Program-made: the position numbers and the translations under genes | Notes under the pieces: generated by a model | Told to the model about the DNA's origin: nothing | What the model saw: the letters and a program-made list of their open reading frames with translations, nothing else | Databases searched by the model: none | Shown: positions 1,354 through 32,166 of the stretch, one piece after another | Position numbering within the stretch: position 1 is the first letter of the stretch | How the letters are laid out: every line of letters begins with the position of its first letter | NCBI GenBank assembly: GCA_030950835.1 | Contig: JAUZQU010000124.1 | Span: 1 to 33,038 of the forward strand | Source: Mariprofundaceae bacterium | GTDB lineage: Bacteria > Pseudomonadota > Zetaproteobacteria > Mariprofundales > Mariprofundaceae | Length of the DNA stretch: 33,038 nt | Direction of reading: 5' to 3'

Positions 1354-3042
1354 TTAGGCCCCCGTGATAAATTGAGAGATGACCTGCGGTGCAGACGTGT
1401 CAAATCCCACAACATCAAGCATCCCACCATCGTTCGGATCGGCGATGGAAAAACTTGTTGCCGTCATACCAACCACGATGAGCTTAGCTGGAATGCCCAT
1501 TTTTCTGCGATATCTGGCCAACGCCTGGCAGGGATGAATCCCTCCGTACCATGTTTCATTGTCCGTGTAGACGATGAACACATCAACGGGAATACGATGA
1601 TCCTGTGCCCAGATCATAGGTAAAGCACAGTCAGTTCCTCCGGCTGGTAGACTGCGCGTCCGTTTGATAACACTATCAAGCCGCTCCTTCGCCGTTATGG
1701 GAAAATCACGCAATTCATGGCTAAAGGTCACGACTGCATAGGACTGCTCTGTCCGAGCCGTGACCATCGCCATAGCCGCAGCAGCTTCACGCGGTTTTAC
1801 ATGCATTCCAGAAACATATCCCAAATCCATTGAACCCGATACATCCAGCGCAAGGAGAATCCGCGCTCCCGTTGGCCCTACTGCCTTGAACGACAGGTAG
1901 AAGGCCTCATCTAATGCATCAATGATCGTCCCGACAGGACTCCACGTCAACGATCCTAACTCACCGCATCCTACCATGTAGATGTTCAAGGCTTGCAGAA
2001 TAGAGAGAGGATGGAGGCGAGCACCGATAATACGCTCCTCGCTCGTGAGCCGCTCTGCTACAAGCTTTGTGTGCGTGCCTAGCGGTGCAAGAAGGCCGAG
2101 AGCGGTCAGCCGTCCTAGGTTTCGCAACAAGGCTGTCATGGGTAAGCTGGGAAGCAAGGCTTCCCACACACGTGCTTCCCGAAGAAGTTCCGTCGGAAGC
2201 ATCTCCCACGTGAGCGAAGGATTTGAGGCAATCAGCCTGACAGCAGTGTTGACGGTCTCCTTGAGAGATGCCGACCGGTCCTTCTCATGACGGTAAACAG
2301 AAAACAGCTCTTCGTGTGCCTGGTGCAGACGAAGCGCGTCTTCTGGAATGGCGCTGATATTGACAGGACCATAGTGCGTTGGCTCTTTTTGCCGACGATC
2401 GACAAGACGAGCACCAAGGTTGTCAGGATCAACGTATAAACGGCAAATGGCATGGTGGGCTTCCGTTGGAGGAATCCAGTGCGAGAGACGCCAGGCATCT
2501 CGGTGCGTCCATCCAGCACGTGACTGGTACTTCATCAGCTGATAGAGAAGATCTTTTGGAGAAAGCTGGCTGTACCAGTTGCTGACAGCACGACGTAATC
2601 CTCTTCCCCAGCCTCGAAATGCTTGAACTTCGGAGAGAAACTGAAAAAGGTGTGTCGCGGTCCGTGCCACGCGAGGGAGAACCGTAACGGCTTCACGCCG
2701 TGCTTCTTCCGATCCCAGCGCCATCACCATGGCGAGCACAAAAAGAGCTGGCGTGTTCTTTGGTGCACGGCCGGCCGTGCTGATCTCTTCGACACGCTTG
2801 ACAACACGCAAACCATCATCCTTGATACAGCGAACCACGGCTTGCGCGTTGTCAATCGTCAGCTTTCTTTCTGACACGTAGTACGTCCCTCCCTCGCTTC
2901 CCAGGATAAGAAACCGATCGAGCCGAACCCAGTCACTAACGGGAAAGACATACCCTCCCGCGTCGTTCTGCACCTGGTTCTTGCCAGGAATAGGCTCCCG
3001 CTGAGGAGTTTCTAGCGTCTGAAAATGCTTTGCGTATGTCAT
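1354..3042 (-). CDS. rsr: TROVE domain protein, Ro60 orthologue (Rsr), with C-terminal vWA/MIDAS domain
   Basis: 562 aa. TROVE-like N-terminus (FPVSDWVRLDRFLILGSEGGTYYVSERKLT...). MIDAS motif LALDVSGSM, then AGGTDCALPM and VYTDNETWYG, and the Ro-like C-terminus GGMLDVVGFDTSAPQVI. AGGAGG Shine-Dalgarno just upstream of the ATG. Confidence 0.95.
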   Translation of the reverse strand: MTYAKHFQTLETPQREPIPGKNQVQNDAGGYVFPVSDWVRLDRFLILGSEGGTYYVSERKLTIDNAQAVVRCIKDDGLRVVKRVEEISTAGRAPKNTPALFVLAMVMALGSEEARREAVTVLPRVARTATHLFQFLSEVQAFRGWGRGLRRAVSNWYSQLSPKDLLYQLMKYQSRAGWTHRDAWRLSHWIPPTEAHHAICRLYVDPDNLGARLVDRRQKEPTHYGPVNISAIPEDALRLHQAHEELFSVYRHEKDRSASLKETVNTAVRLIASNPSLTWEMLPTELLREARVWEALLPSLPMTALLRNLGRLTALGLLAPLGTHTKLVAERLTSEERIIGARLHPLSILQALNIYMVGCGELGSLTWSPVGTIIDALDEAFYLSFKAVGPTGARILLALDVSGSMDLGYVSGMHVKPREAAAAMAMVTARTEQSYAVVTFSHELRDFPITAKERLDSVIKRTRSLPAGGTDCALPMIWAQDHRIPVDVFIVYTDNETWYGGIHPCQALARYRRKMGIPAKLIVVGMTATSFSIADPNDGGMLDVVGFDTSAPQVISQFITGA

Positions 3043-3093
3043 GGCATCCTCCTACGGAATTTGGATAAAATGACGAATAGTTGTCAATGACGA

Positions 3094-3180
3094 GGCAAAA
3101 ATAAAAGCACAACAGGCAAGAAGGCGATGAAGGGAGAATCGTTAGCAGCGATAACCCTTCATCCACGGCCCGTCGTGCTC
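3094..3180 (-). ncRNA. Candidate Y RNA (Ro-associated RNA) immediately upstream of rsr
   Basis: Minus-strand outer stem GAGCACGACGGGC (3180-3168) with GCCTGTTGTGCTT (3117-3105): 13 contiguous pairs, 3 of them G-U. Inner perfect 9-bp stem GATGAAGGG/CCCTTCATC (3163-3155 / 3134-3126), then ATCG/CGAT near the apex. A TTATTTTT tract follows the outer stem. Located in a non-coding gap next to a Ro gene. Confidence 0.5.
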
Positions 3181-3182
3181 AC

Positions 3183-3280
3183 CCTGCCAATCAAGCAGGC
3201 AAGTAAGCTGAGAAAGTGGCCTGGATGCGGTGACCTTTCCCATCCGGCCCGCTCAATCACCCACGCTACGATGAAAGCGT
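3183..3280 (-). other. Additional hairpins upstream of the Y RNA candidate, possibly part of the same transcript
   Basis: CCTGC/GCAGG with a 7-nt loop (3183-3199). GGCC-GGATG/CATCC-GGCC with one bulged base (3218-3249). ACGCT/AGCGT with an 8-nt loop (3263-3280). All lie in the same non-coding gap. Confidence 0.4.
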
Positions 3281-3307
3281 ACAACAGATAGCAATTCCAT
3301 GTCAAGA

Positions 3308-3664
3308 CTAGCGAGGAAGACGCGAAAAGGCAGAAATCCTCCAGCTCACACCGTCAAACCTGAGACCTGGAGTCATGGCCTCACCTTCAATAAACTGACG
3401 AAGTGCTTGCTGACGGTTCTGAAGCATCTGCCTGATTTCGTTCACCGGCGGTACAGGTGATGGGACTTCAAACACCTCGACACGCTCAACCCACTGACCT
3501 GTACGCAAGAGGTCAAGATCGGCTGGTTGAATATCAGGATCGACGGACGTAAATGTTGGATCAGCATAGATGCTTTCAGAACCCTGTGGGACAGGTGCGC
3601 GGAAAGCTACACGCCAAGCATTTCGGTTCCCTGGAGCACGTCCTAAGATGATGATTGTATCCAT
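3308..3664 (-). CDS. Hypothetical protein
   Basis: 118-aa ORF. TGAGG-like Shine-Dalgarno upstream of the ATG at 3664. No family recognised. Confidence 0.7.
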   Translation of the reverse strand: MDTIIILGRAPGNRNAWRVAFRAPVPQGSESIYADPTFTSVDPDIQPADLDLLRTGQWVERVEVFEVPSPVPPVNEIRQMLQNRQQALRQFIEGEAMTPGLRFDGVSWRISAFSRLPR

Positions 3665-3690
3665 CAGGACCTCACATCATGCGTAGAAAC

Positions 3691-3734
3691 AAAGAAAAGC
3701 CGACTCCCCGTCACGGAGGAACCAAGGAGTCGGC
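3691..3734 (-). terminator. Intrinsic (rho-independent) terminator or attenuator
   Basis: Minus strand: GCCGACTCC (3734-3726), loop, GGAGTCGGC (3707-3699), then TTTTCTTT. A 9-bp perfect GC-rich stem followed by a T-tract. Confidence 0.9.
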
Positions 3735-3765
3735 CCAAGGGGTGTGGAAGCACATAGGTGACGGT

Positions 3766-3794
3766 AGTATATCCGGTCAGTTACACGTTGTCAA
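3766..3794 (-). promoter_or_regulatory. Sigma70-type promoter
   Basis: Minus strand TTGACA (3794-3789), 17-nt spacer, TATACT (3771-3766). The -35 box overlaps the purM stop codon. Confidence 0.8.
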
Positions 3795-4723
3795 GGAAGC
3801 GTCACAATGTCCTTGATAAAGACATGAGGAGAGTCGTCATCAATGACCGTTCCGAGAACAAGAGGTTGCCACGGAGCAAGAAGCGCAATGGCCTGTTCCG
3901 TGTAAGAAGACGGAATGACGATGATGAATCCAATGCCCATGTTCCATGTCGTCCAGCACGTATAGTCGTCAATGCGTGCCTGGGAACGAAGAATGTCATA
4001 GACGGGTAGAGAACGAGGAAGCGCCGTAATACGATAACTGACCGTGTCGGAAAGACGAATGAGATTGAGCCATCCTCCTCCTGTGATGTGAACAAGTCCG
4101 TGAAGAGGAATCTGTGCTGTTGTCAGTGCCCGAACGGCTGGGACGTAAATAATTGTTGGCATAAGAAGCATGGGAAGGGTGTGAGGATTGAGGCCGAGAA
4201 TTCGGCGGGCAAGCGTATAGCCATTTGCATGAAGACCAGAACTAGCCAGACCAATGAGCACATCGCCTGGTTGAGGTTCAGTGCGTTCACGCTGCCAGCG
4301 GCGACCAATAGCGGTCACGGAAATGTCGCATGGAGTATCTGGGTGAAGAAGATCGGGAACAATAGCTGTTTCTCCACCCACGATGGGAGCATTCGCGTGA
4401 GCAGCAGCTTTGGCAAGGCTTTTGGCAAGCGTGTCAAGGTGCGGCCAGTTGGGATCCCGCAGGGAAAGCGTGTCGCAGAAGGCAAGAGGAAAAGAGAAGG
4501 CGCAGAGAAGGTCATTGGCCACCATGGCAATGGCATCTTGGCCAATCGGAGCAAAACGATTGGCTTGGGCCGCAAGAAGAAGCTTTGTCCCAACACCGTC
4601 TGTTGTAACGGTGAGATCTGTTCCAGGAATCTCAGCAGCAAAGGCGTGAGGAGACGGGATGTGCAACGCGGAGAGGAATGATGTGATAGTCGAGGTGTAG
4701 GTCTTATCAAGGTAAGCAGTCAT
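3791..4723 (-). CDS. purM: Phosphoribosylformylglycinamidine cyclo-ligase (AIR synthase, PurM)
   Basis: Motifs TTDGVGTKLLLA, IGQDAIAMVANDLL, IVGGETAI, GLASSGLHANGYTLAR and HITGGGWLNL. The ORF track starts at a TTG at 4747, but the ATG at 4723 (MTAYLDKTYTS) is a more likely start. Confidence 0.93.
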   Translation of the reverse strand: MTAYLDKTYTSTITSFLSALHIPSPHAFAAEIPGTDLTVTTDGVGTKLLLAAQANRFAPIGQDAIAMVANDLLCAFSFPLAFCDTLSLRDPNWPHLDTLAKSLAKAAAHANAPIVGGETAIVPDLLHPDTPCDISVTAIGRRWQRERTEPQPGDVLIGLASSGLHANGYTLARRILGLNPHTLPMLLMPTIIYVPAVRALTTAQIPLHGLVHITGGGWLNLIRLSDTVSYRITALPRSLPVYDILRSQARIDDYTCWTTWNMGIGFIIVIPSSYTEQAIALLAPWQPLVLGTVIDDDSPHVFIKDIVTLP

Positions 4724-4733
4724 GTATGCATGC

Positions 4734-4765
4734 AGCACACCACACAATTAAAGATGAGGTGTGCT
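4734..4765 (-). promoter_or_regulatory. Hairpin in the purM 5' leader
   Basis: Minus strand AGCACACC (4765-4758) and GGTGTGCT (4741-4734): a perfect 8-bp stem with a 16-nt loop just upstream of the ATG at 4723. Confidence 0.4.
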
Positions 4766-4781
4766 CACTGCTCGTCAAGAG

Positions 4782-5372
4782 CTACTGCAATTTATGATCT
4801 TGTAAAGAAGCTGCACAACAGCCTCTACCGCAAAACCAATTCTCCCCACAAGACGGAGGAAGATCAAAAATCACGTGAATACGGTGTGCTGAAGAATTAT
4901 TTACACACCAGTGCAGCTGCGTATTGTCAATCTCATAATACACTCCATAAGACAGGTGCTTTACAACATCTCCAACACCAAACAGCACACGAGAGTCTGT
5001 GACAACCGGAAAATGAAAACGGCGGCAAACAGTCAACGTGTTACCAGCGTCAACATGCGCAGGAATAACACTATAAGGACGTAGACGAGCAATGAGTATA
5101 CGTACAGCACAGGGTGGAACCGCACGCATGACAGAATCGCGTAACCCTATGGAATCAGCAACCGGACAGTGTACGTCGTACCACCCAACATAGTCATCAT
5201 CGCTACAGAAACGAAGAATCAGACATTTTACATTCTCATGTGTTCCAACAGACCTCCACGATGGCGTGTGTCGCACCCAAGCATACTCAGGTACGGCGCG
5301 TACTAAATCCTTAATAACAACAGCATCACGCGCGTTCTCTCCACACACACGTATACACTCCAGTAGCTTCAT
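4782..5372 (-). CDS. Aspartyl/asparaginyl beta-hydroxylase-like 2-oxoglutarate/Fe(II) dioxygenase
   Basis: 196 aa. Pattern IPAHVDAGNTLTVCRRFHFPVVT...YEIDNTQLHWCVNNSSAHRIHVIFDL matches the HxD...RxHxPV...G..xxxDN...H.V.N.S...RIHxxxD arrangement of the family. Confidence 0.8.
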   Translation of the reverse strand: MKLLECIRVCGENARDAVVIKDLVRAVPEYAWVRHTPSWRSVGTHENVKCLILRFCSDDDYVGWYDVHCPVADSIGLRDSVMRAVPPCAVRILIARLRPYSVIPAHVDAGNTLTVCRRFHFPVVTDSRVLFGVGDVVKHLSYGVYYEIDNTQLHWCVNNSSAHRIHVIFDLPPSCGENWFCGRGCCAASLQDHKLQ

Positions 5373-5722
5373 GGCATATTATCAGGCTCCATATGCTGCG
5401 TAAGAGGCTTACCGTCAGGATCTAGAATAGGCTTTCCCTCGTTTGCATGTACGCAAAGAATCGCCGTGTCATCCTCAAGAGCAATGATGGTATGATGCTT
5501 GTCTTTATCAACACCAAAAAACGTCGGCGCCGTAAATATTGACTCACGACCATCTACCTTTACCAACACACGTCCACGAATGACAATACTAATATGATCG
5601 TGTGGATGTCTGTGTCCTTCGTGAATAACATCCTTCTTTGGATAGTATTGTTTGACTATCCAGATGTTCCCGTAATAGCCAGTCTCAATAAGTGCTTTGT
5701 ACCCCTGCTTTTCGACAACCAT
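5369..5722 (-). CDS. Small single-domain cupin protein
   Basis: 117 aa. HEGHRHPHDHISIVIRGRVLVKVDGRE...KHHTIIALEDDTAILCVHA is a cupin metal-binding and beta-barrel pattern. Confidence 0.85.
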   Translation of the reverse strand: MVVEKQGYKALIETGYYGNIWIVKQYYPKKDVIHEGHRHPHDHISIVIRGRVLVKVDGRESIFTAPTFFGVDKDKHHTIIALEDDTAILCVHANEGKPILDPDGKPLTQHMEPDNMP

Positions 5723-12515: not shown

Positions 12516-13207
12516 CAGCTCACCGTGTTTAAGATAACGCGATGATCCGTCACACCAGGAAACGCCCCAAATCTCTCCGTGTTGGCATGTGCCTTGCATC
12601 CATTGCTTGTATCATTCAAAATCTTTGAGCATGTGTTACCAGAGGAATCTCCTGGCGTGGAGAGAACAAATCCTGATGGTTGCGAGTAGGTGAAGGGTTC
12701 GGTCGTCGAGCGTATCCAACAGCCTTCACCTTTGTATGTATGCATACAGCGAGGGCGGGTGATACGACGGATCGGGACCTTGATGAGCGTTTCATCAAGG
12801 CGCGTGGCCAAATCAAGCGTGACTGTTAAGCTATCAAATGACGAGGAAAACACCACATACTGAAAGTCCATGCGCGCCGTCGGATCATTCAGCAAGTTGG
12901 CGTTCACGATCGTGATGAGACAGTTCTGCCCGACAAGACCGTTGTACTGCTCAATGTAATCCTGGAAAAGCCCGTTTGGCGATGCAAAGACAAGACGGGT
13001 GTCCGATATTCTCCCTTCCGCTGTTTGCTCAATGGCCTCAACACGAAAGGCGAAGGCTGTGTACGTCTGGCCATCAAACACGACATCTTCTGGATACTGA
13101 GCAACCCTGACAACAGTCGTCGCGTCAAGATGCTGCTCGACAAGATAGATCCACGGGCCTTGTTCGGTTTTATGAACTTCAGGAACAAACGGGGTTGGTA
13201 GCGCCAT
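12515..13207 (-). CDS. Minor tail protein, lambda gpL-like with four C-terminal cysteines
   Basis: 230 aa, between the DUF2460-like and NlpC/P60 genes. PRCMHTYKGEGCWI...NTCSKILNDTSNGCKAH. Confidence 0.8.
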   Translation of the reverse strand: MALPTPFVPEVHKTEQGPWIYLVEQHLDATTVVRVAQYPEDVVFDGQTYTAFAFRVEAIEQTAEGRISDTRLVFASPNGLFQDYIEQYNGLVGQNCLITIVNANLLNDPTARMDFQYVVFSSSFDSLTVTLDLATRLDETLIKVPIRRITRPRCMHTYKGEGCWIRSTTEPFTYSQPSGFVLSTPGDSSGNTCSKILNDTSNGCKAHANTERFGAFPGVTDHRVILNTVS

Positions 13208-19377: not shown

Positions 19378-20211
19378 TTACACGGGCTGGAAGAGATACC
19401 GCTCACCGAGTACTAACTCGTTGGCCCATGTCGAGCTTGTCAATCCAAAGACGTTAAAGGCAAACGGAATCTTCGTATTTTCCGATACGCGGATATTCTC
19501 GACAAACTCCGCAGCAGCTTGAACCTTGTCAAACCGATGCACGAGCTGGAAGCCGTCGATAAAGTCGGCCACACCCAGCAATGTGTACGCCGGTAGGGCC
19601 GTCGTCCCGAACGGGATGAAGTTGGCAACAGGCTTCCCAACAAAGTCATCAACAACAGGAGCTGGGTTAAACCCTTGTCCTGCAAAGTGCACCTCAAGCC
19701 CGTTAATAGACGAGATAATCGCATAATTCTGCGACGTGTCCCACGCTGGAGTTGACGATGCCAACACAATCTCATCCCCAACGTACCAGGCATTTGCCGG
19801 CGAGTTGGCCAGCGAGATGACAGTTGCTGTTGGCGCGGTTGGCGTCGAGACAACCGTCAGGTTCGCAGGCGCGAGATACTTCGCCGCATTACTCGGGACA
19901 GACCCCAGAGCATTGATCACTGCACGGGTATCACGTGTTTGAATATTAAACGTGACCCGTGCCGCAAGAGACACCGTCGCTTGGAACTGCAAAACGCGCG
20001 GGATGCCCGTCTGCAATTCAAAGATGCCCTTGCTAACCGTGATGGTTGGCGTTTCCTCGTCCACAGGGCCGAGGTCACGAAATCCAGCCGGAGGATTTGA
20101 AATATCCACCCGAGCTGGAGTCCACGACGTGCCAAAATCGGCGATCAAAAACCGCTCAATGGCCAATGACACGTCACGAACGGTAATAGGGTTTGCATAG
20201 GTGACACCCAT
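19378..20211 (-). CDS. Major tail tube protein
   Basis: 277 aa, upstream of the chaperone and downstream of the tail terminator. GIFELQTGIPRVLQFQATVSLAARVTFNIQ fits a tube-like beta-rich pattern. Confidence 0.75.
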   Translation of the reverse strand: MGVTYANPITVRDVSLAIERFLIADFGTSWTPARVDISNPPAGFRDLGPVDEETPTITVSKGIFELQTGIPRVLQFQATVSLAARVTFNIQTRDTRAVINALGSVPSNAAKYLAPANLTVVSTPTAPTATVISLANSPANAWYVGDEIVLASSTPAWDTSQNYAIISSINGLEVHFAGQGFNPAPVVDDFVGKPVANFIPFGTTALPAYTLLGVADFIDGFQLVHRFDKVQAAAEFVENIRVSENTKIPFAFNVFGLTSSTWANELVLGERYLFQPV

Positions 20212-20222
20212 ACGTTTCCTCC

Positions 20223-20624
20223 TTACGATGTTTCACGCAAGAGCGTTGTCGTAAAGTTCAGCGAAAATACCACACGATTGTTGGCGTCACGGAAATGGAC
20301 GCCAGGTTCGTGATCTCCAAAAATCCGTCCTGGATTGTTCGCCAGGACGTTTGCCTGATTATCCAACGCTGAGAAGACCTTCTCAGCTTTCTGCATCCCT
20401 GACGTAATGCTATCAGCCCTGATCAGAACCTGAAACTGCACACGCTTAATGGCATTGAGGTCAGCAGCCAATCGAGGACCACCTGTTGGGATCACCGCAA
20501 CAGCCTCTGTTGGCTGATGGGGAAGCTGATACAAGAACACGTCAACGCCAAGCGTCCCTATTCCAGAGGTTTGGAGATGCGTGCCTACGTCATTCAGGAC
20601 TGAATCAGTCAGTTGCACCGTCAC
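20223..20624 (-). CDS. Tail terminator / minor capsid-like protein
   Basis: 133 aa. VQFQVLIRADSITSGMQKAEKVFSALDNQ...HFRDANNRVVFSLNFTTTL. Synteny agrees. Confidence 0.65.
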   Translation of the reverse strand: MTVQLTDSVLNDVGTHLQTSGIGTLGVDVFLYQLPHQPTEAVAVIPTGGPRLAADLNAIKRVQFQVLIRADSITSGMQKAEKVFSALDNQANVLANNPGRIFGDHEPGVHFRDANNRVVFSLNFTTTLLRETS

Positions 20625-20824
20625 GAGACAGCCTCGACATCAATGTCCATACGGACGACCATGATTTCCCTCAAGTCATGAGGTTTATGCGTCTGCTGTG
20701 TGACAGCATGCACAATGTTGCCGTTCTCAAACTTCAAGACCAACGTCCCGTAAAAGCCAGCCTTAGCCAACTTTACGAGAAGCCGGTCGTAAATGATCTG
20801 ACACTGCTTCTCAGGCGTCAGCAT
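20621..20824 (-). CDS. Small protein resembling DUF2292/YezD-like proteins
   Basis: 67 aa. KAGFYGTLVLKFENGNIVHAVTQQT resembles the YGxxxLxxxxGxIVxxxxTE pattern. Weak, short match. Confidence 0.4.
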   Translation of the reverse strand: MLTPEKQCQIIYDRLLVKLAKAGFYGTLVLKFENGNIVHAVTQQTHKPHDLREIMVVRMDIDVEAVS

Positions 20825-23800
20825 ACAAAACCAACTCTTTCACCCGATCCCACCAGGCCTCCCGCACAGTGTCAGGAAAGGCATACGCTTCAGGAACGCG
20901 CGTATATGCCACTCGTAAATGTTCCTCGGCACGTTTGACCTGCCGATTAAGATACCGATTGAGATCCTCAATGTCCCGAAACCATAAACGCTCAGATTTA
21001 TGCGACTCTGTGACCTGCCCAAGGCCAATAGCCATGGAGGCGTCAAGAACAAGAGGAATGTGCGTTCCCCCGTGAGGGATCATACCTGCTTTTGCGAGAA
21101 ACATCAGCGCCGACTGGTACACTTTCCAAGCATGCGTAAAATAGGGAAAATCATCCCTCCACATCTGATGCTCATGGTACAGTCGCACAATCTCCTGGAG
21201 ATGCAAGATATCGTCGTCAGTTAGCACCTTCCCTTGATCCACGGACCACTTGACAAGGTTTAAGTGGTCTCTGATGAGCAACACCCACGCGAGCTTACGC
21301 TCAGGATGCTGCTTGAGGTCCTTGATGAGCAGTTCCATATTCCGCGTCTTTATCTTCCACCTGCGGTCTGCCTCGGTGAGGTACCCGTAATGGGCTAACA
21401 TCGTGTCGGGTAACACCAGCGCAGGAACAACAGGCTGATCGTAGGTGCCTTCAGGACCGCTCTCGACATGCTCATGAATGACACCAACAAAACGGTATGA
21501 GGGACGACGCCGAAATATCCGCACGGGGACATCCTCATGATGCTCAGCATCAAGCGTGAGATGCCGCTGGCGGAGGACAAACCCCTCATAGAGAGAATCA
21601 TGCATGAGATACTTGTGCATGCCCCGCCCGTTGACAAGAACTTCATCGGCGTCGAGCCACAAGATCCAATCACCCGTTGCATGACGGATTGAGGCATTCC
21701 TCGCTGCTGCAAAGTCATGCGGCCATTCCCCTTGCGTGATGATCAGCGTCGGAGGTTGATAGACATGCGGTATGACCTTCTGGGCGATGGCCAGCGTGTC
21801 ATCCGTTGATCCCGTATCGTGAATGATGATCTCGTCAACATACGGAACCACACTCTTCAAGCACCTGGAGATGTTATCCGCCTCATCCTTCACGATCATG
21901 CAGCATGAAACACGTTGGTACGGGAGGGTGGTCTTAACCTTATGCTCAAGATCAATGGATCCAAACCCTGTCTTCTTTGGATTCGCTCTCCAGCAAATGA
22001 ACCAATGACCAACAATCTCTCCACGCGACGTGATCGTCCAAAACCCTGCATCGGAGAATACCTCGTCCTTTTCTCCGAAGATCTGCTGAATATCACGGAT
22101 AGTAAAGTGGTGAATATGCTGCGGAAGATGCTCTGCTCCCTCCTCATGTCTCCACGCAATGCTTTCCATCGGGCCAATAGGCATGGTCACGGCAACAAGC
22201 CCGCCAGGCTTGGCACAAAGCTCAATTGCGGAGAGGAACTCCGTCACGTGCTCAATATGCTCAAGAATCTCACCTGCCACAACAACATCGTACCGATGAA
22301 TGTGCTCCGTCCCTACACAAAGGTCACGCCACGACAACGTCTCGAAACGAAGATGCGATGGCGTCTTGGCGTGCGAAGCACTAAATTGCATGGCCTCTTT
22401 GATGACGCGATCCCCAACATCTACGCCAACGCCGTGCATGGGCGGCCATCGTGTATTCACATACGTGAGGAAGTCACCGTTGTGGCATCCCACATCAAGC
22501 CAGCTCCCAGAAACATGCCCACCGAAACGCTCAATGTGATCAGCCAACTTGACAAAACGCCACCGGTGATCCCAGTTGTCATGACACGCTGTGCTGCTCT
22601 CCACAAGATGAAACTGATCCGTCTTCCTCACCGAAACATCAATCAGTTGCTGCGCACGCTTCTCCCACTCATCAAGACCATGAAGCTTCGCCCAGTCTCT
22701 GACGGCCACAATGTCAGAGTGATAGATCAAATTCTCAAGAATGCGATCCCTCTTCTCGGCATACCGCTTCTCAAAGAGCTGTGTGAGCACACACTCCCAT
22801 TCCGCTGCAATATCATCCCAATACCGCTTGCGTTGAGCAGTCATTTCGACGCACTGGTGACGAAGGTCAAAGCTTCTGCCTCGCGCCTCGACAAGATCAA
22901 CGACAGCCTTGACAAAATCATCTTGATATCGTTGAGATGCGGCATCTCCCTCAATGAGAATACCAGCCTGCCCGACGGTTTCAGGAAGCGCAAAGTCTTT
23001 TGTCGTGATGGGAATGGCTCCGCAATGCTGAGCCTCCATGACGGAAATGCAGGAAATCTCAGCAAATTGCGTGGGATAGAGCCAAGCTTGCGCCCGACGC
23101 ATCTCCTCATAGAGGCGAGCCTTCGGTAGGTTTCCGAGAAACGTGACGTCAAGATCAGACGACGTCCGCGCTAACTCCTCGGCGGCTTCGATCTCATAGG
23201 AAACATGACGTGCCAGCGGAAGATCCTTTGAGAAGGTGTACCACGCAAGGCCAAGGCGGGCTTGCGGAATGCGCTTCTTGATCTGCGGCCAGATCCTTGT
23301 CAGCAAGATCTTCACGCCCCTCTCAGGACGCGAAGTATAGAGAAAATAATAGGGATCGCGCGGAGCACGCGGATCAGCAGGATCGCCGATCAGCTCACGA
23401 TCAATGCCATTCCTTGTAATGATCACGTGCTTGAGAAAGGCATCGCGTGAGTGAGCTGGAGCCTCTCTCTCATAGACGTAGAGATGAAATTGAGACAAGA
23501 ATAAGTAGGCATCTGTCTGCCAGAGATGTTCCTCCCACGACCCAAATCCTGATGGAAGGACATCGTGATTCCACAGCCAAATCATCTTTGCCCGTGTCTT
23601 CTTCGAGGCAAACACGGGATTTCTCACAATAACCAACAAGTCAAAGTCATAGACGGGACTGACATCATCAAACGTGCTGACGGGCAAGTATTCAACCCCG
23701 TAACGATCAAACGAAGCCTCGTCAACGGGGCAAAAGACCTTCACGCTATGCCCGCGACGTGCAAGCGCACGCGAAAGGCAGACAACAGCCGTCTCAGATC

Positions 23801-23879
23801 CACCCAAGCTTTCCTTCTCAACAGAATCAGCACGAATCGGTAATCCAGTCCCAACTAAAAATGCACAGGCGTATCTCAT
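20811..23879 (-). CDS. Multidomain GT4 glycosyltransferase - SAM methyltransferase - GT2 glycosyltransferase
   Basis: 1022 aa. GT4: GGSETAVVCLSRALARRGHSVKVF, LYTSRPERGVKILL, ISVMEAQHCGAIPITT. MTase: GSWLDVGCHNGDFLTYV...DVVVAGEILEHIEH. GT2: VSCCMIVKDEADNISRCLKSVVPYVDEIIIHDTGSTDDT...DWILWLDADEVL. Confidence 0.93.
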   Translation of the reverse strand: MRYACAFLVGTGLPIRADSVEKESLGGSETAVVCLSRALARRGHSVKVFCPVDEASFDRYGVEYLPVSTFDDVSPVYDFDLLVIVRNPVFASKKTRAKMIWLWNHDVLPSGFGSWEEHLWQTDAYLFLSQFHLYVYEREAPAHSRDAFLKHVIITRNGIDRELIGDPADPRAPRDPYYFLYTSRPERGVKILLTRIWPQIKKRIPQARLGLAWYTFSKDLPLARHVSYEIEAAEELARTSSDLDVTFLGNLPKARLYEEMRRAQAWLYPTQFAEISCISVMEAQHCGAIPITTKDFALPETVGQAGILIEGDAASQRYQDDFVKAVVDLVEARGRSFDLRHQCVEMTAQRKRYWDDIAAEWECVLTQLFEKRYAEKRDRILENLIYHSDIVAVRDWAKLHGLDEWEKRAQQLIDVSVRKTDQFHLVESSTACHDNWDHRWRFVKLADHIERFGGHVSGSWLDVGCHNGDFLTYVNTRWPPMHGVGVDVGDRVIKEAMQFSASHAKTPSHLRFETLSWRDLCVGTEHIHRYDVVVAGEILEHIEHVTEFLSAIELCAKPGGLVAVTMPIGPMESIAWRHEEGAEHLPQHIHHFTIRDIQQIFGEKDEVFSDAGFWTITSRGEIVGHWFICWRANPKKTGFGSIDLEHKVKTTLPYQRVSCCMIVKDEADNISRCLKSVVPYVDEIIIHDTGSTDDTLAIAQKVIPHVYQPPTLIITQGEWPHDFAAARNASIRHATGDWILWLDADEVLVNGRGMHKYLMHDSLYEGFVLRQRHLTLDAEHHEDVPVRIFRRRPSYRFVGVIHEHVESGPEGTYDQPVVPALVLPDTMLAHYGYLTEADRRWKIKTRNMELLIKDLKQHPERKLAWVLLIRDHLNLVKWSVDQGKVLTDDDILHLQEIVRLYHEHQMWRDDFPYFTHAWKVYQSALMFLAKAGMIPHGGTHIPLVLDASMAIGLGQVTESHKSERLWFRDIEDLNRYLNRQVKRAEEHLRVAYTRVPEAYAFPDTVREAWWDRVKELVLYADA

Positions 23880-23903: not shown

Positions 23904-24140
23904 TTAGAATCCAAAAATCCTCTTCGCAGCACGAAATCCTCGCTTCCCAAGTCTCTTGATCACTTCACGATTATGGTGGCGTATCACGGCAGCACGGGCT
24001 GCCGCGCGGGACCGAAACGTTCTCACCACACCACGCTTTGGCCCCCCGATCCTGACCCGATACAGGCCTCGTATCCGTCGGATACGTGACAAATCGCGGA
24101 AACGAGCCCGCACCGTGGCCAGACCTGTACGAACAAACAA
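23904..24140 (-). CDS. Small Arg-rich hypothetical protein, likely starting at TTG 24140
   Basis: The ORF track gives 141 aa (23904..24329), overlapping the upstream gene by about 175 nt. A TTG 13 nt after the upstream TAG would give a 78-aa product, MFVRTGLATVRARF... Confidence 0.5.
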   Translation of the reverse strand: MFVRTGLATVRARFRDLSRIRRIRGLYRVRIGGPKRGVVRTFRSRAAARAAVIRHHNREVIKRLGKRGFRAAKRIFGF

Positions 24141-24153
24141 CCGCTCGGCACGT

Positions 24154-24669
24154 CTACCGTATCGTCGTGGTGGCTTGCGGCCCAAGCGCTTGGCGGCGTC
24201 CCGCCTGAATATGTTTCTTGCGATGGCGCTCAGCCGGCGTCGTGACCTTGGTACCTCTGATCTTCTTCTCAATGGCACGCTCAACCCTCTTTCTCCACGC
24301 CTCAATAAAAACGGGCTTCTTTGACACAACTGTTTCCGTTACAGCGCGGGAAATAAACTTCGGTCCACGCCTTCCATCCACAAGGCGCTGACGCGCTTGC
24401 GTATCCTCGTGCACCTTTGCCGCATAGGGCGTGTCATTCTCAATGACCACCTTGCCCTTCTCATTTTCAGCCACACGTGTCGCACGCTTGAGACGCCCCG
24501 TTTGCTCCGGCGTGTAGGTACGAACGAGAGGAAGCGTGCGCTCTTCCAATTCCTCCCTGAGCGCACGTTTAAGAAGGTCAGGATAGGCGCGGATCAGTTC
24601 GGCAAGACGCTTGTCGGCCTCGGCAAATTGCTTGCTCGTGTCCTTGACCGTCAAAAATTGCCGAGCCAT
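24154..24669 (-). CDS. Head-tail joining protein, HK97 gp10-like
   Basis: 171 aa. KRALREELEERTLPLVRTYTPEQTGRLKRATRV...YAAKVHEDTQARQ. Confidence 0.75.
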   Translation of the reverse strand: MARQFLTVKDTSKQFAEADKRLAELIRAYPDLLKRALREELEERTLPLVRTYTPEQTGRLKRATRVAENEKGKVVIENDTPYAAKVHEDTQARQRLVDGRRGPKFISRAVTETVVSKKPVFIEAWRKRVERAIEKKIRGTKVTTPAERHRKKHIQAGRRQALGPQATTTIR

Positions 24670-25040: not shown

Positions 25041-25565
25041 TTATCCCCGCAGCAAACGAGGTCCGCGTTTCCATTCCCGAAGCAACGCAGCGGCCTCATA
25101 CGACAAGACATGACCTGTGCCCGTCGAGGCAATAGAATGCGTAACCGTACCGCCTGAGACAGAAATCGATAACGTCCCACGCTGCTGCGCATTTAAGACA
25201 TCGGGTTGACCAATCTGCGCCAATCGATAGATCGCCTGGTAAACCTGCGCCTCAGGGACGTATTTCTTCTGCCTCTCAAGATCAATGGAGAACGACGAGA
25301 CATCCGTTAAGCTAAAACGAAACGAGAGACTCAACGAACGCGGGAAGGCCAACGCTTGGCGGAGGAACAGCGGTTCACCTAACCAAGGCCTGCTGTCAAT
25401 GTCACGGCAGGCGCGGAGAAGGGCCTGTGAGCGCTTCTCGTCATCATACGAGAACCACAGGGACGATGCCATCGTCGTGGCAGCAATGCTATTCGCGTCC
25501 GTCAACGTGACATACGAGTTAGAGGTTTCCCCTCCCCACGTCGCCACAAGCGTGACCACAGCCAT
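25041..25565 (-). CDS. Head-tail connector (DnaT-like/adaptor-type protein)
   Basis: 174 aa. NSYVTLTDANSIAATTMASSLWFSYDDEKRSQALLRACRDIDSRPWLGEPLFLRQALAFPRS is typical of phage head-tail adaptor neighbours. Confidence 0.7.
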   Translation of the reverse strand: MAVVTLVATWGGETSNSYVTLTDANSIAATTMASSLWFSYDDEKRSQALLRACRDIDSRPWLGEPLFLRQALAFPRSLSLSFRFSLTDVSSFSIDLERQKKYVPEAQVYQAIYRLAQIGQPDVLNAQQRGTLSISVSGGTVTHSIASTGTGHVLSYEAAALLREWKRGPRLLRG

Positions 25566-25570
25566 GATGC

Positions 25571-25834
25571 TTAGTCCTCAAATGAAAACTGCGAGAGGTC
25601 AGGCTTTCCCTTTACAGGTTTTTCCTTCTCACTCGCCCGTAAACGAGCTTGCTCGCGGGCCTGCTCAATCTCAGCAATCCCAGCTTCAAGACGATCCAGA
25701 AAGTCATACCAATACGCTGCCGGAATCGGTGAAATCACAGGATTCCTGAGCGAGCGGGCTTCCGCGAGCGCCTCACGAAGCTGCTTCAATCCATGCGCAA
25801 CCGTCACCTCCGTCCCTCCTCGCCTAGACCGCAT
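25571..25834 (-). CDS. Hypothetical protein
   Basis: 87-aa ORF tightly packed between the capsid and connector genes. Confidence 0.6.
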   Translation of the reverse strand: MRSRRGGTEVTVAHGLKQLREALAEARSLRNPVISPIPAAYWYDFLDRLEAGIAEIEQAREQARLRASEKEKPVKGKPDLSQFSFED

Positions 25835-26961
25835 TATGTTCCCGTGATGCTCGCACGAGCCATGCCTTCCTCATTGTACAATTCGACAGTGTACTCACCG
25901 ATAATCATTCCCTTCTCAGCATCGCCGGTCTTGGAGACAGGCTGGAATTGGAATGTCCTGCCTTGCAAGGGAACGACGTGAATACGGTTCGTCGAGATTG
26001 CAAACAAGGAGGAAGCTGGCATCCACCGAGACATCACGACACGCTGCGTGCCGTATGTTCCCTCATACGTATCAACCACGTTGCGGAAGGTCCCCTCTTG
26101 GTTTGTGACCCGTACGCGGGAACCCTGCAAGCTATCAATCTTCCGCTTGTGGATCGTATCAACCACCAACACATCAATATCGTTACCGCCTTGCGTCCAC
26201 GCGGACTCCACAACGTTCGCAATTAACGTATCCGAAAGCACGGCAATCGAGTGGATGTTGGTGGAAAGGAACGAACGCACGCCGCGCATGGTGCGGACAG
26301 CCGAAGAAGAGCCGATGGTGTTCCCTGAGAGAATGCTCAGGACCACAGCTTTCTCAAGTCCAACGACGGCTTCACGGAGACGCTTCGTCCGTTGATACGC
26401 AAGCTCATCGGCAATCCCGCCGAGGTTGCGGACGGCTTGACGAGAACCAGAGACGATCACGTCTTTCTTAAAGATCTGCATGTAATTGCTTCTCCGGACG
26501 CGACCAATCCCGATATCCTCGTCAACGTCGTCGCCTTCTAATGCCGCATCGGCGAGCACCGTAAACACACCACCTGTCCCCCAGGAGTTTGCGCTCGTTC
26601 CGCCAAACGCACGCTCAACCGTAATGGTGTTGCCTGAAATGACGGAAATCCGCATGTACTCCTGGCCGTCTGGATGGATGAGCAACTGCCCAACGAACAG
26701 CCGCTCAGCATCGCCGTTGGCGATCCCAATCTGCGTGTCAGCCGTTGTCGATGAGATCGCCGTTGATGCGGTGATGCTTTGAGGAGCTAAACTATCCTCC
26801 AACCACTCATGCAGCACGTTAAAACCTTCCCGCATGGGTGGCGTGAGGATATCAAGAAACGGTGTTTCAGACGGGGAAATCATCCCCACCTCTTCAGAGA
26901 CGTCCTCCGCTAACGACTGAAAGACGTTTGTGCCATAGATGGCAAGTCCATTAAAGGCCAT
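25834..26961 (-). CDS. Major capsid protein, SU10/DUF5309-like
   Basis: 375 aa. EEVGMISPSETPFLDILTP...SNYMQIFKKDVIVSGSRQAV..., GMIIGEYTVELYNEEGMARASI. Lies downstream of the scaffold-like gene. Confidence 0.88.
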   Translation of the reverse strand: MAFNGLAIYGTNVFQSLAEDVSEEVGMISPSETPFLDILTPPMREGFNVLHEWLEDSLAPQSITASTAISSTTADTQIGIANGDAERLFVGQLLIHPDGQEYMRISVISGNTITVERAFGGTSANSWGTGGVFTVLADAALEGDDVDEDIGIGRVRRSNYMQIFKKDVIVSGSRQAVRNLGGIADELAYQRTKRLREAVVGLEKAVVLSILSGNTIGSSSAVRTMRGVRSFLSTNIHSIAVLSDTLIANVVESAWTQGGNDIDVLVVDTIHKRKIDSLQGSRVRVTNQEGTFRNVVDTYEGTYGTQRVVMSRWMPASSLFAISTNRIHVVPLQGRTFQFQPVSKTGDAEKGMIIGEYTVELYNEEGMARASITGT

Positions 26962-26976: not shown

Positions 26977-27903
26977 TTAGACAGGCTGACCTTGCTGACG
27001 AAGCGAGCGCTCCAACGCGGTCAGCTCTGTCTTCAACTTTGTCACCATCGCAATATCATTCGTATTTCCTGTGCGTTGTGCCAAGGCCCGAGCCTCATCC
27101 AGCTTCTGCCGAAGCGATTGCAGTTCGGCCGAAGCCGTCTGCGCACCAGGTCCTTGTTGATGTGTCCCACCGCTTCCCGTCTTGGTGGTTTTAGGTTTTC
27201 GTAAAAACGGAGGTAGCTCCTTAATCACACCTTCCTCAATTGTCGTGTCGAGGCCATCTTTCGTGGTATAAATCCACTGCTGTGTATCCTCGTCCCATCT
27301 GGTCTTATTCTTAAAATAGGGTAACGCAAAATCCACATCATAGACGTCAGCACGAGATAGCGCCGACGCAATGAGTGAATCACGCGCGGCTTCACGCCGC
27401 TCAATTTCCGCCTCAATGCGCTTCCGACGCTCCTCCTCAATCTGCCGCGTCAGCTCCTCTGTCCGTCGCATCATCTGGTCAAGCTGCCTGTGCAGGTCCC
27501 TGATTTGAGGGTTCTGTTGATCAGGCGCTTTCGTGAAACGACCAGAGGCATCACGTGGCGGTGTTGCACGGGTTGCATCGGCTGGCGGAGGTTGAGATGC
27601 CGCGTGCTGTTCCGTTGCCGGCGGAATCTCAGGCTCCGCAGTCTTGTGTTCAAAAAAGTCGTGAATACGTGATTGCAAGGCATCAAGCTGGTCGGTGAGC
27701 TTCTTCAACGCCTCACCTTGTGCTTTGACCTCTTCACGGAGAGCACGCTTGTTCTGCGCAACAATGTAATTCACTTGCTCCTGTGTGAAGAGTCTCTTAT
27801 CCCCGCTATCTTGCGGTGCCTCGGAAGATTGCAGATCACTTTGTTGGCCTTGACTCTCTTGTTGCGATTCGAGTGCGGCGTTTTGCGTGTCAAGTTCTGG
27901 CAT
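26977..27903 (-). CDS. Scaffold-like protein
   Basis: 308 aa. Gln/Glu/Arg-rich, coiled-coil-like, between portal and major capsid genes. Confidence 0.75.
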   Translation of the reverse strand: MPELDTQNAALESQQESQGQQSDLQSSEAPQDSGDKRLFTQEQVNYIVAQNKRALREEVKAQGEALKKLTDQLDALQSRIHDFFEHKTAEPEIPPATEQHAASQPPPADATRATPPRDASGRFTKAPDQQNPQIRDLHRQLDQMMRRTEELTRQIEEERRKRIEAEIERREAARDSLIASALSRADVYDVDFALPYFKNKTRWDEDTQQWIYTTKDGLDTTIEEGVIKELPPFLRKPKTTKTGSGGTHQQGPGAQTASAELQSLRQKLDEARALAQRTGNTNDIAMVTKLKTELTALERSLRQQGQPV

Positions 27904-27906
27904 ACA

Positions 27907-29475
27907 TTAACCTCCTTGTTGGGGAGTCTGCTGGACCCCTTGATCGGGTTGAGAAAACTGCTGTTGCTCAAAGAAAAACCGTTGCGCTGTCGTTTGCGCA
28001 ATTTCTTGCGCGACTTGAGCTTTGACAGCATCATCTTCCTTGTAGAGGAATTTGTTGGCAAGCTTCGTCCGCATAATTCGTGCAAAGGACACCGACTTGA
28101 TCTCTTCCACGGCACGGGAAAGCGTCGTCAATTCCTCATCAAATAGTTCAATCCCAAACTCTTCAGGATAGTCAATCGTCCCTCGCCACTCCTCATTCAA
28201 CCAGGCTGCCCACAGGCGGTGGATCTGCTGTTCCGCGTTCTCCAGCACCAACGCTTGCTCAGCCAGTGCTTGATTGGTTTCGTTAAAGTCGAAGGCATGA
28301 GAGACACCTGATTGACCTCGTGTTGGGTTAAGCGTCCCGCCAAGATGTGCCAGCGTGAACATCTCGGTTTTGAGCCGATCTATAGATTCGAGAATCATTT
28401 GAGCCGGCGCTGTTGGCGTGGCGATAAATTGCGGAGGAATATTGCCCGTGTACTCTAAAACGTTATTCGAGCCAATGATCACGTCCGTCGACTCGTCAGC
28501 CACGTCTTTATGCAACGTCAGGATCGACATGACTTTCTGATGCAATTCCTCGTCAAGCAACGATGTCCATTGGTATATCGCCACGTTGATCCCGCTGAGG
28601 TCAGTGAGAGCGGAAATCCCACAGCCTGGATCAAGACTACTTGGTTCACGAACGACAAGAACAACAGGTACTTCACCGAGCGGATTTGGCCCCTCGTCAA
28701 TCAGATTGACCTCTTTTCCGCGGATCTCATGCAAAAACCACTGCGTGCGTGTCCACGTCCGCACACGTTGAGCCTTCATCGTTGCCTTCATCGGGAGGGC
28801 GGATGACGTATACGGAGATGACCGAGGAAGCTGAACCGATGAGCTGACCAGCTCCGGTGAAAACGGGTCTTCTTGATCGGGAGCATCCTCCTTCCACCGT
28901 ATCCATAAAAACCGACCCGCCGCATCCTGCGCCCAATTGATTACCCGCGGAGGATCAACGGTGTACAAATACGGACGCAGACCAAATGCCAACCTGTCAG
29001 CTTCCGTCAGCAACGTCTCCGTCAGACGAGGCATATCAACCACGACATACACATGCCCGAAGATGTTCATCCTGCGGTGGACGAACTTCTTCATAAAATT
29101 GTTCATGTCGTGACCCTTGCCATCCACGTCTCGATAGAACTCTTGAAGCTCATCTGGCGTAACTGGAACGCCGCCGGTCCCCGAGATACGATCCGCCGAA
29201 CGAACAGGCGGGCGGTTGTAGATAAACGCCGAATAAATATCAATAATCGGCTGGCAGAAATTGAGATAATACGTACGCTGCTTACGACGCAAAAACGAGC
29301 TTTCATGCTCACGCTGGTGCTGGACAAGCAGATCACGAACCCGTATCCCGCCCTCGTAGACACGAAGAAAGGTATCCCAGCGCGCTTGCAAGCGCGTCAC
29401 GCAATCATGCTCAGCCAGCAGAATCGCCGCGAGATCAGGCTTGGTATTCGGTCGAGTCAACACAAGAGGCGGCAT
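27907..29475 (-). CDS. Portal protein
   Basis: 522 aa. RKQRTYYLNFCQPIIDIYSAFIYNRPPVR...LTDLSGINVAIYQWTSLLDEELHQKVMSIL. Synteny agrees. Confidence 0.85.
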   Translation of the reverse strand: MPPLVLTRPNTKPDLAAILLAEHDCVTRLQARWDTFLRVYEGGIRVRDLLVQHQREHESSFLRRKQRTYYLNFCQPIIDIYSAFIYNRPPVRSADRISGTGGVPVTPDELQEFYRDVDGKGHDMNNFMKKFVHRRMNIFGHVYVVVDMPRLTETLLTEADRLAFGLRPYLYTVDPPRVINWAQDAAGRFLWIRWKEDAPDQEDPFSPELVSSSVQLPRSSPYTSSALPMKATMKAQRVRTWTRTQWFLHEIRGKEVNLIDEGPNPLGEVPVVLVVREPSSLDPGCGISALTDLSGINVAIYQWTSLLDEELHQKVMSILTLHKDVADESTDVIIGSNNVLEYTGNIPPQFIATPTAPAQMILESIDRLKTEMFTLAHLGGTLNPTRGQSGVSHAFDFNETNQALAEQALVLENAEQQIHRLWAAWLNEEWRGTIDYPEEFGIELFDEELTTLSRAVEEIKSVSFARIMRTKLANKFLYKEDDAVKAQVAQEIAQTTAQRFFFEQQQFSQPDQGVQQTPQQGG

Positions 29476-31563: not shown

Positions 31564-32166
31564 TTACGCCCACGTAATATCCAAGGCTCCTGCGGCAAAC
31601 TTGGGTGCGGGGTCTCCATTATTCACGGTCTTGGCCGTTCCCAAGTTTCCGTAGAGCAGCATATCCCCACCCGTTGAACGGGTCAGAATCGCCGTCGCCA
31701 CGATACTGCCCCAGTTGGCCGTCGGAGCTGGAAAAACAATGTCATTGGCATTATCCGTCAATCCATTACCGGCTGAAGCCGCATTCCAATTCGTATCAGA
31801 CGGGTTGTACAGCACACGCGCATAGCTTCCACCGGAGACCTCTGTGCCCCCACCGGTCTCCCCAGGAGCTGCCGTGTATAACGCCACGTAGAGAGGACGC
31901 TTCGGGACGCCCACGGCAATGGCTTGCCATGTCACGGTGTTGTCCGCTGTCTCATCACCAAGATTTGCCGTGTTCCACGTCGGCTCCGTAGACCCAGACG
32001 TACCAGCTGCCACACACTGGAAGAGCCGATTGTTCCATGTCGTCGGACGAACGATGTCCCCGACAGCATATGCTGTGCTCGCCGCCCAGGCATTAACAGT
32101 GAGAAGACCTGTCCGAAACAGGTGCGTGATCATCTGGTTCTCAAAATAGTCAGTCAGCTGCGACAT
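31564..32166 (-). CDS. Fibre-like protein with carbohydrate-binding-module-like N-terminal domain
   Basis: 200 aa. WAASTAYAVGDIVRPTTWNNRLFQCVAAGTSGSTEPTW and YVALYTAAPGETGGGTEVSGGSYARV. Confidence 0.65.
   Translation of the reverse strand: MSQLTDYFENQMITHLFRTGLLTVNAWAASTAYAVGDIVRPTTWNNRLFQCVAAGTSGSTEPTWNTANLGDETADNTVTWQAIAVGVPKRPLYVALYTAAPGETGGGTEVSGGSYARVLYNPSDTNWNAASAGNGLTDNANDIVFPAPTANWGSIVATAILTRSTGGDMLLYGNLGTAKTVNNGDPAPKFAAGALDITWA

Follow-up and report, generated by a model that had tools for sequence, protein, structure and literature searches.

A GT4-methyltransferase-GT2 fusion gene accompanies the capsid genes of uncultured phages and is a candidate for virion glycosylation

The window, a stretch of 33,038 nucleotides, comprises an entire contig; the metagenome bin to which it belongs amounts to 1.83 Mb in 224 contigs. 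All phage structural genes of the contig are located on the minus strand, including a real open reading frame at 20811-23879 that codes for 1022 amino acids. It begins with ATG, and a Shine-Dalgarno-like GGAGGG 8 bases upstream provides a clear ribosome site. The product is a fusion of a GT4-type glycosyltransferase, a class I methyltransferase and a GT2-type glycosyltransferase. On the minus strand, the gene order starts with a portal (27907-29475), a scaffold-like gene (26977-27903), an SU10-type major capsid protein (25834-26961; Pfam SU10_MCP, E 4.2e-70; phrog_1328), the head-tail adaptor Ad1 (25041-25565; phrog_477, E 8.4e-16) and neck1, a tail completion protein (24154-24669; phrog_5, E 3.7e-8). 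The fusion gene follows, then a gene for 67 amino acids (20621-20824) overlapping its 3' end by 14 bases, and the tail terminator (20223-20624; Pfam Phage_tail_terminator_6, E 1.1e-13). Beyond the terminator lie the tail tube, a chaperone, the tape measure and the tail tip. The major tail or tube protein (19378-20211), a candidate acceptor, had no match in Pfam or PHROGs and was assigned by position; its homologues occupied the matching place in four related loci (L038, L210, L220 and L222). The site between head completion genes and tail terminator, as given by the sequence-only reading, was thus confirmed, with adaptor and neck1 upstream and the terminator downstream.

Several other features were observed on the minus strand of the window. 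Between neck1 and the fusion, a possible open reading frame for a very basic protein of 78 amino acids (23904-24140) matched no family. Upstream of the portal, the product of 31564-32166 combines a chitin-binding-type CBM_5_12 motif, just below the cut-off, with a following gp80/head-fibre domain and is, judged by these domains, a possible carbohydrate-binding head decoration. Behind the tail-tip gene, an unusual accessory gene set (1354-5722) codes for a Ro60/TROVE ring protein (1354-3042), an AIR-synthase-related protein (3791-4747), an Asp/Asn beta-hydroxylase-like protein (4782-5372) and a cupin (5369-5722). No RNA family of Rfam matched within the window.

Pfam detected three domains above the curated cut-offs in the fusion protein, Glyco_trans_1_4 at residues 182-329 (E 4.1e-8), Methyltransf_23 at 439-603 (E 3.3e-18) and Glycos_transf_2 at 658-747 (E 1.6e-19). 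With 30 sequences as input, AlphaFold modelled the protein confidently as three domains (pLDDT 84.3, pTM 0.83), which were compared to the PDB with Foldseek. The GT4-type domain (residues 1-372, 22764-23879; Glyco_trans_1_4 and Glycos_transf_1) has a GT-B fold and matched the retaining GT-B enzymes tll1591, MshA, PimA and the pneumococcal O-GlcNAc transferase GtfA. It contains the EX7E motif of GT4-type retaining glycosyltransferases (E274 and E282, 23034-23060): E274 was kept in 76 of 79 near-full-length members, with D in the other three, and E282 in 78. The class I SAM-dependent methyltransferase domain (residues 437-625, 22005-22571) is Rossmann-like, had NovO as fold match, and carries motif I (LDVGCHNGD, residues 461-469, 22473-22499) together with the acidic residues of this enzyme class. 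Methyltransf_23 was found in 29 of 30 relatives scanned with Pfam; D462 and the pair E540-H541 were each conserved in 77 and G468 in 75 of the 79 sequences, and motif I was degenerate in a few members (L024, L028). The GT2-type domain (residues 650-905, 21165-21932) shows a GT-A fold with the metal/donor motif DADE (residues 743-746, 21642-21653). All 79 members share the DXDE pattern, and D743, D745, E746, R727, N728, H802 and E803 are invariant. Its closest folds were the glycocin S-glycosyltransferases SunS and ThuS, its closest PDB chains by sequence GmaR (3.5e-23), SunS (5.7e-14) and ThuS. The C-terminal helical region (residues 906-1022, 20814-21164) is variable and poorly conserved, with a low-confidence tail at 990-1022. 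The initial recognition of three enzyme domains in one protein was borne out by Pfam, by the predicted fold and by recurrence in the relatives, and the domain calls and catalytic motifs proved correct. Since the same domain order recurs in 106 open reading frames, the architecture is not a product of chance.

Relatives did not appear in a single-protein search of viral contigs with the window fusion. Likewise, tblastn of the window protein and one relative against 50,697 public phage records gave no full-length match, and relatives of the host genus offered only ordinary bacterial GT2 or methyltransferase matches. A search of IMG/VR with an alignment of GT4 domains revealed at least 558 relatives. 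Among the fetched loci, the GT4-methyltransferase-GT2 order was present in 106 open reading frames, almost all on uncultured viral contigs. Together with a few GT4-GT2 variants of weak methyltransferase score, these formed 88 non-redundant clusters at 90 % identity. The identity of relatives to the window fusion was 24-33 % in an alignment of 30 sequences, and about 25-35 % was the level for the non-redundant set. The GT2 domains of the family formed one clade (SH-aLRT 95). Bacterial genome records with the full architecture were metagenome bins of Proteobacteria, SAR324, Desulfobacterales and Zixibacteria. A 982-kb contig of a Deltaproteobacteria bin (L108) holds portal, protease, scaffold, capsid, a GT4 gene and the fusion deep inside bacterial sequence; some carriers of the fusion are, from this placement, probably prophages. 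No prior description of this architecture beside capsid genes was found in the literature searched.

For the analysis of gene neighbourhoods, neighbour genes were clustered without regard to annotation and the representatives named with PHROGs. The usual order was portal, protease, scaffold, capsid, then an HNH gene, a small gene or an extra GT4 gene in some loci, followed by the fusion, adaptor, neck1, terminator, minor tail and tape measure. Within five genes upstream of the fusion, a major capsid gene was present in 52 of the 88 loci, within five genes downstream in none; connector or terminator genes showed the reverse distribution (40 of 88 downstream, 0 of 88 upstream). Considering only loci with more than 4 kb of upstream sequence, the capsid gene was upstream in 44 of 62. 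This linkage was not built into the sampling, because the loci were found by enzyme motifs alone, and the simple ORF caller would be expected to understate the counts, not to inflate them. Twenty of the 88 loci lacked a structural neighbour on the same strand within five genes, some of them being short contigs or miscalled open reading frames. A minority group (L035, L043, L151, L155, L175 and L195) had the fusion beside RCC1-repeat or tail-fibre-like genes instead of the capsid gene, and the acceptor may differ in this subgroup. Seven loci (L030, L072, L079, L100, L106, L108 and L181) contained a separate GT4-type gene of about 320-350 amino acids between capsid and fusion, which suggests longer glycans in those phages.

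The linkage was also seen in searches that started from the capsid. Downstream of capsid genes of lineage a (phrog_1005 type), the fusion occurred within 5 kb in 48 of 48 testable loci, and downstream of those of lineage b, the SU10 type of the window, in 28 of 46. Because the capsid queries came from loci with the fusion, and because some contigs nearly duplicate others, these fractions hold for the two lineages and not for all phages. Throughout lineage a and in most of lineage b, the fusion gene lies directly behind the capsid gene, usually within 1.1 kb. Pairwise distances of fusion and capsid proteins were correlated (Mantel r 0.85, n 40), also within lineage b alone (r 0.74, n 10), and similar values were obtained for fusion versus adaptor (r 0.81) and terminator (r 0.87). 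The fusion and the capsid protein co-diverge.

Closer relatives of the window differ in the presence and place of the fusion. L038 shares the order of scaffold, capsid, adaptor, head closure, neck1 position, fusion, 67-aa homologue, terminator and tube at 27-49 % protein identity. L220 and L222 have the gene order of the window, but the fusion is absent. In L222 the slot is empty, neck1 ending at 12921 and the small gene starting at 12926; this small gene is the homologue of the 67-aa gene, which in L038 is placed directly 3' of the fusion. In L216 the fusion is located further downstream. Within the capsid clade of the window, the fusion is an accessory gene of shifting place, and close relatives without it indicate that it is not essential for this capsid. 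The description of the gene as inserted, made in the sequence-only reading, therefore fits the window's own clade with its empty-slot relatives, but not the other capsid lineage in which every testable locus has the fusion. Isolates with related capsids, namely Roseobacter phages RDJL1 and CRP-6, Rhizobium phage RHph_Y60 and Sporosarcina phage Lietuvens, keep the cassette order without the fusion. Inserts or extra domains peculiar to capsid or tube proteins of fusion-bearing phages were looked for as a pointer to the acceptor, and none was seen.

Another type of fusion, separately derived, follows capsid genes in 18 of 44 loci of environmental phages. It also joins a GT2 and a GT4 domain in one protein behind the capsid gene, but in reverse order and connected by a TPR linker, and its GT2 domains belong to a clade separate from the GT4-methyltransferase-GT2 family. 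The Manatee Spring phage MW202524 carries such a protein (UOF78238) behind its capsid gene, with further transferases and methyltransferases downstream; the same arrangement, after SU10-type capsid genes and with extra transferases or methyltransferases downstream, was observed in L003 (3147-7307) and other loci. The arrival of two fusion types at one place would suggest that they have a substrate near the capsid in common.

A glycosylation of the virion is favoured by the association of the gene with capsid and connector genes in many lineages, by the absence of a membrane segment from the window protein and by the GT2 matches to peptide glycosyltransferases. The enzyme is probably a soluble late protein, whose product would be a short O-methylated glycan joined directly to a virion protein; capsid and tail tube proteins are the most likely candidates. 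Expressed late and residing in the cytoplasm, it would decorate the phage's own particle in three steps, before or during assembly. One transferase domain would use a nucleotide donor to place the first sugar directly on the virion protein. SunS, ThuS and GmaR modify peptides or proteins directly, and this first step falls more likely to the GT2 domain; GtfA illustrates that GT4 enzymes are able to start as well. The other transferase, presumably GT4, would add the second sugar, and the methyltransferase would O-methylate the product, probably to cap it. Among acceptors, the major capsid protein would be the likeliest and the tail tube the next, and the phage may benefit from a shielded or stabilized particle or an altered adsorption. 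The resemblance to SunS, ThuS and GmaR in sequence (GmaR, SunS) and fold (SunS, ThuS) has its bounds: these are single-activity or differently fused proteins, and despite the best matches, the GT2 tree did not place the phage fusions in a specific clade with GmaR and SunS.

Phage glycosyltransferases of the GtrB type modify the host surface, and GT4 and GT2 enzymes are common in lipopolysaccharide synthesis. Late in infection or during lysogeny, the fusion could change an envelope glycan such as the O-antigen or the capsule, either blocking superinfection or freeing progeny from receptor-bearing debris. The GT2 domain matches phrog_841 weakly (GtrB-like, E 0.011), and bacterial relatives of GT2 type occur in the same phylum; both agree with this possibility, which we nevertheless consider unlikely. 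The window protein has no membrane segment, with a maximum hydropathy of 1.35, and only 6 of 88 relatives reach 1.6; a flippase or another seroconversion partner is missing among the annotated genes of the window. The fixed order behind the capsid gene and the co-divergence with the capsid protein are unexpected for a trait directed at host receptors. As a GtrB-type seroconversion enzyme the fusion was rejected, lacking the membrane anchor and, among the annotated window genes, a lipid-carrier partner. The sequence-only reading had left the choice between glycosylation of a virion protein with O-methyl capping and alteration of host surface glycans; the former is now better supported, the latter gained no positive support.

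The acceptor could also be confined to the tail, i.e., tube, fibre or tip, with the capsid linkage merely reflecting the structural operon. In the window the fusion adjoins neck and tail terminator, not the capsid gene, and it abuts or nearly abuts terminator and tube in the window, L038 and L210. The subgroup beside tail-fibre or RCC1-repeat genes and the glycosylated tail tubes of mycobacteriophages (PMC12363180) point in the same direction. Yet a purely tail-directed enzyme is rendered quite improbable by lineage a and the larger part of lineage b, where the gene comes directly after the capsid gene. Even less can be said for a hypermodification of DNA, that is, glycosylation and methylation of modified bases in the phage genome: virus-encoded glycosyltransferases do modify DNA according to Pyle et al. 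2024 as cited in PMC12619734, but the window, only part of the genome, contains no base-modification genes, the linkage is to structural genes throughout, and peptide and small-molecule transferases are the best structural matches, so that this function is very doubtful. Finally, the protein might derive from an enzyme and serve structure or assembly at the head-tail junction without catalysis. The constant place among connector genes and the degenerate motif I of a few methyltransferase domains could be related to such a role, which is hardly credible with both transferase active sites almost invariant over 79 divergent sequences and with isolates of related capsids that have full connector sets without the fusion.

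A virion-glycosylating fusion would have two counterparts among known viruses. A064R of chlorovirus PBCV-1, a protein of 638 amino acids, performs two glycosyl transfers and one methylation on the capsid glycan (PMC9614988). A064R and the window fusion are both single viral polypeptides with two glycosyltransferases and a SAM methyltransferase; A064R finishes the O-methylated glycan of the major capsid protein, while the corresponding activity of the window fusion is predicted. The domain order of A064R, GT34-like, novel GT and C-terminal methyltransferase, differs from the GT4-methyltransferase-GT2 order of the window fusion and was rejected for it; moreover, A064R stems from a eukaryotic virus and extends an existing N-glycan, and no homology is claimed. 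Mycobacteriophages carry glycans on their capsid and tail tube proteins (PMC12363180), and glycosylated virion proteins have been reported for Che8 (PMC12363180, PMC11256854). The gp108 of Che8 (L357, 4172-5347), annotated only as glycosyltransferase, was identified with Pfam as a GT2 domain fused to a TylF/Methyltransf_24 methyltransferase. It resembles the window fusion in this combination and lies beside two further transferases, gp109 and gp110. In Che8, however, the cassette is made up of individual genes at the extreme right of the genome, with a methyltransferase of the Methyltransf_24/TylF type and a GT25-type gp110. Homology to the Che8 enzymes was rejected, as in hhalign gp108 matched only weakly, through its methyltransferase, and gp109 and gp110 not at all. 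A064R and the Che8 enzymes are functional analogues of the fusion, not family members; the fusion family is distinct from A064R and from the Che8 cassette and belongs to neither.

The particles of phages are usually regarded as protein alone, and to our knowledge it is mainly for some mycobacteriophages that glycosylated virions have been established. Dozens of divergent phages, for which metagenomes are almost the only source, show a genetic link between this three-enzyme fusion and the capsid gene. We tentatively suggest that particle glycosylation by a fused enzyme might long have been a fixed component of the capsid cassette, with enzyme and capsid protein inherited together as partners, and that a large uncultured lineage might possess virions with a coat of O-methylated glycans. 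Natural relatives with the fusion (the window, L038) and without it (L220, L222) in one gene order make the proposal directly testable. Should the fusion have the capsid as its substrate, glycan coats may be widespread on the particles of uncultured phages and have escaped notice for lack of isolates.
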